A stretch of DNA of 64,000 bases, taken from Dasypus novemcinctus. Taxonomy: Eukaryota; Chordata; Mammalia; Cingulata; Dasypodidae. The stretch lies in assembly GCF_030445035.2 (NCBI RefSeq), contig NC_080695.1, positions 51,477,954-51,541,953 on the forward strand, in the 5' to 3' direction. Numbering within the stretch: the first letter of the stretch is position 1; every line of letters begins with the position of its first letter. Shown here piece by piece: positions 693 to 1,331 of this stretch. Position numbers and translations under genes: made by a program. A model generated the notes under the pieces. That model was not told the origin of the DNA. It was given only the letters and a program-made list of their open reading frames with translations, and did no database searches.

Positions 693-698
693 ACCTAG
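693..698. repeat. Left target-site duplication ACCTAG
   Basis: Six bases identical to 1326-1331, directly abutting the TG at 699. The duplication does not extend to 7 bp on either side. Confidence 0.8.
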
Positions 699-713
699 TG
701 TGGGAGGAAGGGC

Positions 714-789
714 ACCCGGCTAGCTCAGTCGGTAGAGCATGGGACTCGTAATCCCAGGGTCATGGGTTCGAGCCCCACATTGGGCGCCA
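714..789 (+). pseudogene. tRNA-Lys-derived pseudogene with encoded CCA
   Basis: The 73-nt body (714-786) folds as a tRNA: acceptor 714-720/779-785, anticodon stem 740-744/752-756, T stem 762-766/774-778 with T loop TTCGAGC, then discriminator G786 and a templated CCA (787-789). It closely resembles mammalian tRNA-Lys(CTT), but the anticodon (747-749) reads CGT, and the 1-72, 7-66 and 49-65 pairs are broken. Eukaryotic nuclear tRNA genes do not encode CCA, so this copy derives from a mature tRNA. A-box (TAGCTCAGTCGG, 721-732) and B-box (GGTTCGAGCCC, 765-775) matches remain. It is unlikely to work as a lysine tRNA. It sits exactly where an ERV primer would lie relative to the LTR. Confidence 0.85.
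772..789 (-). other. ERV primer-binding site, Lys type
   Basis: Read on the minus strand this is TGGCGCCCAATGTGGGGC, an 18-nt Lys-type primer-binding site matching the tRNA-Lys(1,2) class apart from one substitution. It lies 2 nt beyond the CA end of the LTR, the usual position. Unusually, homology to the tRNA continues for the full molecule instead of stopping after 18 nt. Confidence 0.8.
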
Positions 790-965
790 GTTGCGTCTGG
801 GGTTTGTTTAACCCCGACTCTGACGGGAGGGTCTGGAGGGGTCAGGCTAGACCGCAGCGGCATCTGAGGCTGCGGCAGACAGCCTCAGAGGGGCTCTCAG
901 GTGTGGAGGACACACGGCAAGGGGAGGAAGAAAGCTGCGGAGACCAGGTCTGTGCGCAAGTCTGG

Positions 966-971
966 TTTATT
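966..971 (-). terminator. LTR polyadenylation signal
   Basis: AATAAA on the minus strand, about 18 bp downstream of the TATA box in LTR sense. The equivalent in the second LTR is 37104-37109. Confidence 0.55.
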
Positions 972-988
972 GCGGAAGGGGATATGGC

Positions 989-994
989 TTTATA
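989..994 (-). promoter_or_regulatory. LTR TATA box
   Basis: TATAAA on the minus strand, conserved in position with 37126-37133 (TATATAAA) in the related LTR, just upstream of the poly(A) signal at 966-971. Confidence 0.55.
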
Positions 995-1325
995 GGGTTA
1001 GGGACTGCGTGGAGAGATTTGATAGGTGCGGGCGGTTACTGCTTCCTGATAGGTGATTGTAAGCAGTTGCTAGGCAGAGGGCAGGGGGAGAGGTTAGGAA
1101 TGGGGGAGGGGAAAGGGGAAGTGAGAGCCAACCAGATGTTAGGCTAGGCGGGAGATAGTGGGAGGTGACCGTTATTGATGTATCTTGCCCGGGTAGGCTG
1201 AGGGCGCTTCGCCCGTACCAGGCTGAGGGCGTGGTCGCCCATTCCAGCCACCCTGAACTGTGGCTTCAGGCTGTGCACACGCCTGTTGCCAGGTCAGCTT
1301 AGCAATGGTGGCTCGCACTCCCACA

Positions 1326-1331
1326 ACCTAG
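1326..1331. repeat. Right target-site duplication ACCTAG
   Basis: Six bases identical to 693-698, directly following the terminal CA at 1324-1325. Confidence 0.8.

Follow-up and report, generated by a model that had tools for sequence, protein, structure and literature searches.

A complete tRNA-Lys primer fused to a retroviral LTR in the armadillo genome: probable integration of an aberrant reverse-transcription product, with 29 independent loci of this kind

Positions 699 through 1325 of the window (the whole 64,000-nt stretch of armadillo DNA analyzed here) form a 627-bp unit composed of an antisense long terminal repeat (LTR), a GT dinucleotide, and a complete tRNA-Lys(CTT) that carries its CCA end. 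The unit very probably arose when aberrantly reverse-transcribed DNA of a class II endogenous retrovirus (ERV), one primed by tRNA-Lys, was integrated, and we propose a full stepwise account of its origin. Across the genome, 29 independent loci, the window included, carry a CCA-bearing tRNA-Lys at the usual U5-spacer-primer-binding site (PBS) point; 27 of these are tRNA-Lys1,2 and two are tRNA-Lys3. Fused LTR-tRNA DNA has arisen repeatedly as an aberrant product, with diverse ends, and is not a lone misfire.

An exact 6-bp target-site duplication (TSD), ACCTAG, lies at both 693 through 698 and 1326 through 1331, and the termini of the unit, TGTGGGAG...CTCCCACA, make an exact 8-bp terminal inverted repeat with TG...CA ends. 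This arrangement had been described in a sequence-only reading of the window, and both re-reading and a whole-window scan bear it out: across all 64,000 bases there is one place only where a 6-bp direct repeat with a spacing of 200 to 1000 bp lies directly outside TG and an exact 8-bp inverted repeat. The features are as follows.

693 to 698, unstranded: left copy of the target-site duplication, ACCTAG; the same flanks occur in four duplicated copies
699 to 713, minus strand: 15-nt tail, GCCCTTCCTCCCACA in the LTR sense, complementary to nt 1 through 15 of the L038/L039-type U3 (15/15 against the L064 U3 start)
714 to 789, plus strand: complete tRNA-Lys(CTT) including CCA; its complement follows U5 on the LTR sense (minus) strand
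772 to 789, minus strand: the 18 nt retained as the PBS in a normal provirus; ordinary LTR loci match only to here
790 to 791, unstranded: 2-nt spacer between the LTR end and the primer copy (AC in the LTR sense), the same in ordinary loci
792 to 965, minus strand: R/U5 of the LTR, L039 type (92 to 98% identity per bin over sense 360 to 540; boundary approximate)
966 to 1325, minus strand: U3 of the LTR, L020/L021 type, starting TGTGGGAGTGCGAGCC (93 to 98% per bin over sense 0 to 360; boundary approximate, with the type change in sense 240 to 420)
1326 to 1331, unstranded: right copy of the target-site duplication, ACCTAG

The tRNA at 714 through 786 matches the Rfam tRNA model (44.6 bits, E = 3.2e-06) and is followed in order by CCA (787 through 789), GT (790 through 791), and the U5 end of the LTR from 792, so that the whole tRNA-Lys, 2-nt spacer, and antisense U5 end previously read from the letters are confirmed by both the covariance hit and the junction itself. 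ARAGORN labels the tRNA as tRNA-Thr(CGT) because of a mutation in its anticodon; comparison with the tRNA-Lys-CTT copies of sister loci identifies it as tRNA-Lys(CTT), changed A>C on the LTR sense strand (CTT>CGT). Three further ARAGORN calls in the window, all tRNA-Gly (5047 through 5121, 35217 through 35292, and 51311 through 51386), look like copies of tRNA-derived SINEs and not like genes. The LTR comprises U3, a polyadenylation signal (AATAAA at sense offset 354), R, and U5, and its relatives adjoin an 18-nt Lys PBS. The TG...CA ends and the 6-bp duplication are those of integrated retroviral (class II ERV) DNA; the unit is not a solo LTR, as it runs 93 bp past the normal U5 end (2-nt spacer, 76-nt tRNA, and 15-nt tail). 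Directly after U5 and the spacer, the unit has a mature, CCA-bearing primer copied beyond nucleotide (nt) 58, as a full plus-strand read-through product would.

We searched the genome (3.61 Gb in 546 contigs) for copies of the unit. Among the best 40 of 2560 candidates scored, at least five full-length matches were found, counting the window copy, all of them on contig C37 at 42.46, 43.06, 45.69, 46.30, and 51.48 Mb and in both orientations. Each of the other four shares 99.2 to 99.3% identity with the window copy across 3.6 kb. Because this identity takes in the element and both flanks, target duplication included, the five copies are a single insertion that was later copied by segmental duplication. 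A Helenus (TRIMp3) element would have two LTRs, internal tRNA-like sequence, a PBS and a polypurine tract, and membership of a repeated family, whereas the unit has a single LTR, a tRNA at the PBS position, and one insertion with its duplications; the many copies, LINE-type duplication, and A-rich tail of a tRNA-derived SINE are likewise replaced here by one insertion and a 6-bp TSD.

Counting genomic copies of the tRNA-LTR junction had been suggested as a check; run with the query 699 through 850 and with CCA-bearing patterns, it returned 28 loci besides the window. The query search gave two further complete units that share the tail end of the window unit, and 16 of the 40 matches listed begin at query 74 through 78 (window 772 through 776), that is, they stop at the 18-nt PBS; 12 of these 16, with LTRs of the window U5 type, were read individually. 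The 3' 30 nt of the tRNA with CCA, allowing at most three mismatches, matched 31 sites, and 34 when nt 58 was left free, with none for the reversed control in either case. The 34 sites reduce to 26 loci after removal of two tRNA genes, four segmental copies of the window unit, the second (3') LTR of provirus L072, and a C28 site with a PBS and no tRNA continuation. Addition of L093, from a separate tRNA-Lys search, and of L100 and L101, from a tRNA-Lys3 pattern (reversed control, 0), brings the total to 29; the other two tRNA-Lys3 pattern sites were L060, already counted, and one tRNA gene. At least four LTR families (starts TGTGGGAG, TGCGGTCACC, TGTGGGGAGCC, and TGTTGG) show several events each, and several more families were seen once. 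Twelve independent fused loci have an exact 18-nt Lys PBS, against 2511 exact Lys1,2 PBSs in the genome (roughly 0.5%), the locus and PBS counts both being lower bounds. A tRNA-Pro pattern found three sites, all without CCA, and thus no fusion; since only 12 fused loci occur among 2511 exact Lys1,2 PBSs, a count of 0 against only 146 exact Pro PBSs is too small a sample for comparison. Pfam matched all four pieces of internal retroviral sequence submitted from other fusion loci (L078, integrase core; L054, env; L075, gag p24 and protease); gag/pro/pol/env-related sequence is absent from within the window unit and is known from fusion loci other than those of the LTR subtype of the window. One locus, L100 (C39:52453413), has an LTR of the window U5 type, whose relatives carry a Lys1,2 PBS, and used tRNA-Lys3 as its primer, which amounts to a single-event primer swap.

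These counts bear on whether a real tRNA-Lys gene or pseudogene simply lies beside the LTR, or was joined to it by recombination after insertion. Genes for tRNAs and tRNA-derived repeats are common, and ARAGORN does report a tRNA gene here. Against such an origin, the CCA is encoded in the DNA, the 6-bp duplication encloses LTR and tRNA together, and 29 loci spread over several LTR families share the CCA-spacer-U5 junction, whereas the tRNA-gene-like places returned by the same searches (L086, L087, L094, and L102) are without CCA. We therefore reject a plain tRNA gene on the CCA, the TSD, and the recurrence, and consider the gene-based explanation in any form barely credible.

The LTR of the window unit is not of one type throughout. 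Over sense 0 to 360 it matches four L020-type LTRs at 88 to 98% per 60-bp bin, and over sense 360 to 540 it matches four L039-type LTRs at 92 to 98% per bin. The L039-type LTRs are also 90 to 95% alike over sense 240 to 360, so the change of type is placed only to about sense 240 to 420, a zone that surrounds the AATAAA at 354. No other LTR combining both types was present among the matches listed (best 40 of 2560), and a query across the break (best 40 of 2174 candidates) does not discriminate, both LTR types being alike there. The tail again matches the L039 type. The LTR is accordingly a mosaic of two types, such as two co-packaged genomes would be expected to give.

The 15-nt tail of the window unit is identical to the complement of the L064 U3 start at 15 of 15 positions. 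Its own U3 start was tried as the source and rejected, with 11 of 15 matching and only the first eight in a row, against 15 of 15 for the L064/L038-type U3. Of 12 ordinary LTR loci examined, five (L038, L039, L043, L045, and L056) start with TGTGGGAGGAAGGGCGCCCGGCT, the native source of the tail; in the other seven, this U3 start was not found within 1500 bp. L064 bears the same tail as the window unit and has a 23-bp exact inverted repeat, its last 23 nt being complementary to its own U3 start, with 8 nt of microhomology. In L062 the tail is exactly complementary over 32 nt to nt 1 through 32 of its own U3, reached by way of a 4-nt microhomology (ACTG) located in the D arm. The suggestion that the far end had acquired a U3-like terminus by template switching thus stands, with copy-back tails at L064 and L062 and a native source in 5 of 12 LTRs, and is amended in that the template was not the unit's own U3 and would have been the plus-strand 5' end of another subtype. 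We favor the end of a plus-strand DNA over RNA as template because the tail stops precisely where U3 begins; copying of RNA would run on into the polypurine tract.

In the account that we propose, tRNA-Lys1,2 would have primed minus-strand strong-stop DNA on one RNA genome with an L039-type R-U5, and this DNA would have jumped to the R region of a second genome with an L020-type U3. Plus-strand strong-stop synthesis would then have copied U3-R-U5 and the whole 76-nt primer, past m1A58, leaving a 3' end (...AGCCGGGC) unfit for normal second-strand transfer. Eight nucleotides of that end could have annealed to GCCCGGCT, close to the 5' end of a plus strand of L039 type; 15 nt would have been copied to the end of that strand, giving a new terminal ...CCCACA, and integrase would have inserted the product with a 6-bp duplication. 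We infer this order of steps. The jump between two genomes, read-through of the primer, and copy-back on the plus strand of the other genome would together account for the U3, the R/U5, and the tail.

Some points count against this account. The signature at nt 58 described below comes from the set of loci and not from the window copy, four loci have duplications of 44 to 197 bp, which plain integrase action does not give, 4 of the 16 junctions examined have at most 1 nt of microhomology, no target duplication could be settled at 16 of the 29 loci, and the window unit and L064 share both isodecoder and switch point, so that their tRNA-tail part may have one ancestor; in L062 both differ. The last of these points leads to the main competing explanation, in which a master LTR that had captured a tRNA was transcribed and amplified, and the window unit would be one of the regular copies in a small non-autonomous family. 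The L072/L073 provirus, which has the tRNA in both LTRs, demonstrates that a captured tRNA can belong to an LTR, and the isodecoder, switch point, and tail common to the window unit and L064 would be expected of such a family. Yet the U3 type of the window unit differs from those of L064 and L062, the three lie at different target sites, L062 has another switch point and isodecoder, tails and end points vary across the 29 loci, and the full unit, among the matches listed, is one insertion with segmental duplications. A single amplified family is rejected as the source of all the copies; it is kept as a minor rival for the window unit and L064, and as an explanation of the window unit we judge it improbable. 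The earlier surmise of a rare misfire or a small non-autonomous family is to be corrected: the 29 loci have many different ends, and no small amplified family could be demonstrated.

The fates of the new 3' end in the integrated copies are varied. Copy-back extends over the own U5 or the whole LTR in L066 and L069, and a forward switch into R or U5 restored a ...CA end in L044, L047, L063, L074, and L088; L074 is a 189-bp, SINE-sized U5-tRNA-U5 unit with an exact 6-bp TSD. In L065, L067, and L072 the switch was to a U5 end with PBS, followed by internal sequence. The 3' LTRs of L065 and L067 were looked for and not found; the L072/L073 provirus has LTRs 99.8% identical over 940 bp. Other internal places were reached in L054 (env), L078 (integrase), and L075 (gag, with protease downstream), as identified with Pfam, and, read by eye only, in L071 and L101; L100, also read by eye, switched to its own U3. 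In L060, the tRNA-Lys1,2 runs into another tRNA, tRNA-Lys3. The tRNA end passes straight into host DNA in L061, L070, L076, L081, L068, L079, and L080. The tail of L089 is longer and unexplained, and includes 42 nt of an inverted U3 start; L093 seems to carry an inverted U5 on the left and lacks a clear TSD. Across 16 junctions, microhomology ranged from 0 to 10 nt; because it was 0 at three and 1 nt at one, microhomology helps the strand jump but is not required.

Three observations on these sequences stand somewhat apart. In L066 (C47:132966643), the LTR and tRNA are followed by the inverted LTR and upstream sequence, making a 1248-bp palindrome of 98.6% identity. The U3 start of L064 (L064:987-1009) contains GCCCGGCT, which equals nt 1 through 8 of tRNA-Lys; its 10/13 match to the tRNA 5' end was reached by 15 of 1000 shuffles, a weak resemblance that may be chance or an older capture. 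In the TGCGGTCACC LTR family, the last 30 nt of U5 resemble the tRNA-Lys 5' half (17/20 in L063; none of 1000 shuffles reached 17), and this U5 end is possibly an older captured primer.

Exact 6-bp duplications flank seven of the 29 loci: those of the window (ACCTAG), L064 (AACCAG), L088 (CTCTAT), L074 (GTTTGG), L072/L073 (CCCAGT), L061 (CACAAA), and L089 (AGTTTT). The one in L061 lies exactly at the tRNA end, with about a 1.4% chance of this given 58 TG positions scanned. Two loci (L047 and L070) have a duplication matching at five of six bases, and four have long ones (L060, 72 bp; L076, 44 bp; L081, 73 bp; L062, 195 to 197 bp), which would fit one-ended integration followed by host repair. 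Within the flanks examined, no TSD could be settled at the remaining 16 loci, L044, L063, L068, L079, and L080 among them. For the window unit, the exact 6-bp duplication outside TG...CA ends agrees with its proposed insertion by integrase.

Some tRNA-Lys insertions in this genome have no LTR. L092 (C5:133600180) joins the complement of tRNA-Lys nt 72 to about 15 to what is, by eye, antisense 28S rRNA, a tRNA/rRNA chimeric cDNA insertion. L095, L096, and L098 (on C3, C44, and C7) are insertions of about the tRNA-Lys 5' half only, from nt 1 to 38 through 41, and the presence of TTAGTATTATTT on both sides of L098 suggests a LINE-mediated insertion of a tRNA half. Such halves and chimeras (L092, L095, and L098), together with the long target duplications at four fusion loci, could be taken to mean that LINE-1 machinery retrotransposed a chimeric LTR-RNA/tRNA molecule at the window. 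That explanation is very improbable in view of the exact 6-bp duplications at TG...CA ends (window, L064, L088, L074, L072/L073, and L089), the absence of poly-A at the window site, and junctions located where reverse transcription would place the primer.

The extent of primer copying was read at each locus, with tRNA end points set by hand. Nt 1 of the tRNA was reached at 12 of the 29 loci, including L070, which was cut at nt 45 in the base statistics below since it carries a 1-nt deletion; at the remaining loci, copying ended somewhere from nt 2 to nt 45, in two cases next to A37 (L061, nt 39; L100, nt 37 to 38). The 28 further CCA-tRNA loci at the normal U5-spacer-PBS point support the earlier proposal that reverse transcriptase (RT) read through the entire tRNA and that the primer-derived DNA stayed. 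That reading had also taken plus-strand strong-stop DNA to end at A58, which holds as the usual rule; in vitro, A58 stops synthesis only in part (PMC1785368), and a minor stop occurs at A37 (PMC1785368, PMC13191261).

If a methylated A58 was copied, the base opposite it may record the fact. On the plus strand, where T is expected, A is present in L054, L074, L078, L089, and L093 and C in L044 and L101; the other 22 of the 29 loci have T, including the window copy, which is unchanged there. The dA, at 5 of 29 loci, compares with 6 transversions in 1862 cells elsewhere (Fisher, 2.6e-07), or with 2 in 1340 when restricted to positions beyond 58 (Fisher, 6.1e-08); the dC, at 2 of 29, is a T>C transition and did not enter the test. 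Half of the six other transversions are the same C>A plus-strand change at nt 66 (L054, L088, and L089), which no modification explains; it could represent a viral variant of the PBS. When m1A is followed by G, read signals form a cluster with overall low C (PMC4787781). Since tRNA-Lys has G59, dA or dC in the copy is expected on our reading of that paper, and the dA and dC in the set are as m1A58 misreading predicts, which lends further support to read-through of the primer. The non-LTR chimera L092 also has A at nt 58.

The read-through could be real and the changes at nt 58 nonetheless have another source than m1A58, either the viral base that adjoins the PBS or a tRNA with U58. In L037, and at the downstream PBS of L053/L065, the 18-nt PBS is indeed followed by a viral A. 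More host tRNA-Lys genes are expected than were listed, so that the lack of a U58 isodecoder among those listed does not prove its absence. The base varies, however, inside the family TGTGGGGAGCC (A in L054; T in L071, L076, L079, and L081), dC occurs as well as dA, and A is carried by L092, outside any LTR; on balance we find this alternative rather unlikely, and prefer m1A58 misreading.

Beyond the individual loci, whole-primer copying may be a recurrent route to new LTR ends and to small tRNA-bearing mobile units, the products of which would finish by copy-back or template switching, integrate, and occasionally be inherited within the LTR. We put this forward tentatively, as a plausible generalization on which we would not yet count; it draws on the tRNA in both LTRs of L072/L073, the U5 resemblance of the TGCGGTCACC family, and the SINE-sized L074. 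The genome would serve as a natural record of non-canonical products: the extent of RT, the misreading at nt 58, the sites of jumps, and integration with a wrong U5 end. It may hold a DNA fossil of a tRNA modification, and the loci form a test set for microhomology-driven strand transfer.

A literature search by title and abstract found no report of integrated LTR-whole-tRNA products, although older, subscription retrovirology may hold related cases. A review holds the m1A58 stop to be important for second-strand transfer and describes usable products ending at A58, U55, or U54 only (PMC13191261), and one study reportedly had no extra tRNA sequence in its proviruses (PMC1785368). The nearest likeness is P1, the full-length plus-strand strong-stop product made in vitro by HIV-1 RT on unmodified tRNA-Lys3, which is copied past A58 to the tRNA 5' end with minor A37 stops (PMC13191261). 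P1 is an in vitro product that the review does not count among the strand-transfer-competent ones; the armadillo products are integrated, mostly from tRNA-Lys1,2, and several have finished ends and TSDs. A by-product described as a copying dead end is here repeatedly inserted in a genome with its primer tRNA, often the entire tRNA.

Helenus (TRIMp3) non-autonomous LTR retrotransposons also have tRNA sequence inside LTR-element DNA, which could supply a Pol III promoter; it is attributed to SINE insertion in the LTR, and the families are amplified with 4- to 5-bp TSDs (PMC10886601). In contrast, the armadillo tRNA is primer-derived, antisense, CCA-bearing, and at the PBS, mostly in single insertions with 6 bp where a short TSD was resolved. 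Rous sarcoma virus U5 mutants reportedly give aberrant integrations with host duplications or deletions. Such integrations are also described for HIV-1 integrase mutants (PMC5041404). The long TSDs of L060, L062, L076, and L081 resemble them; the viral events are caused by drugs or mutations, whereas the armadillo ones are associated with a natural wrong U5 end.

The armadillo loci offer a concrete route for tRNA capture by LTRs, one that bears on the strong-stop seeding of tRNA-Lys SINEs. Ohshima, Okada, and colleagues are said to have proposed in 1993 a strong-stop origin for these SINEs, in which a tRNA primer and LTR-derived strong-stop DNA were integrated; that model reportedly invokes minus-strand strong-stop DNA. 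The armadillo loci, known from DNA sequence alone and not as Pol III transcripts, differ in being plus-strand products.
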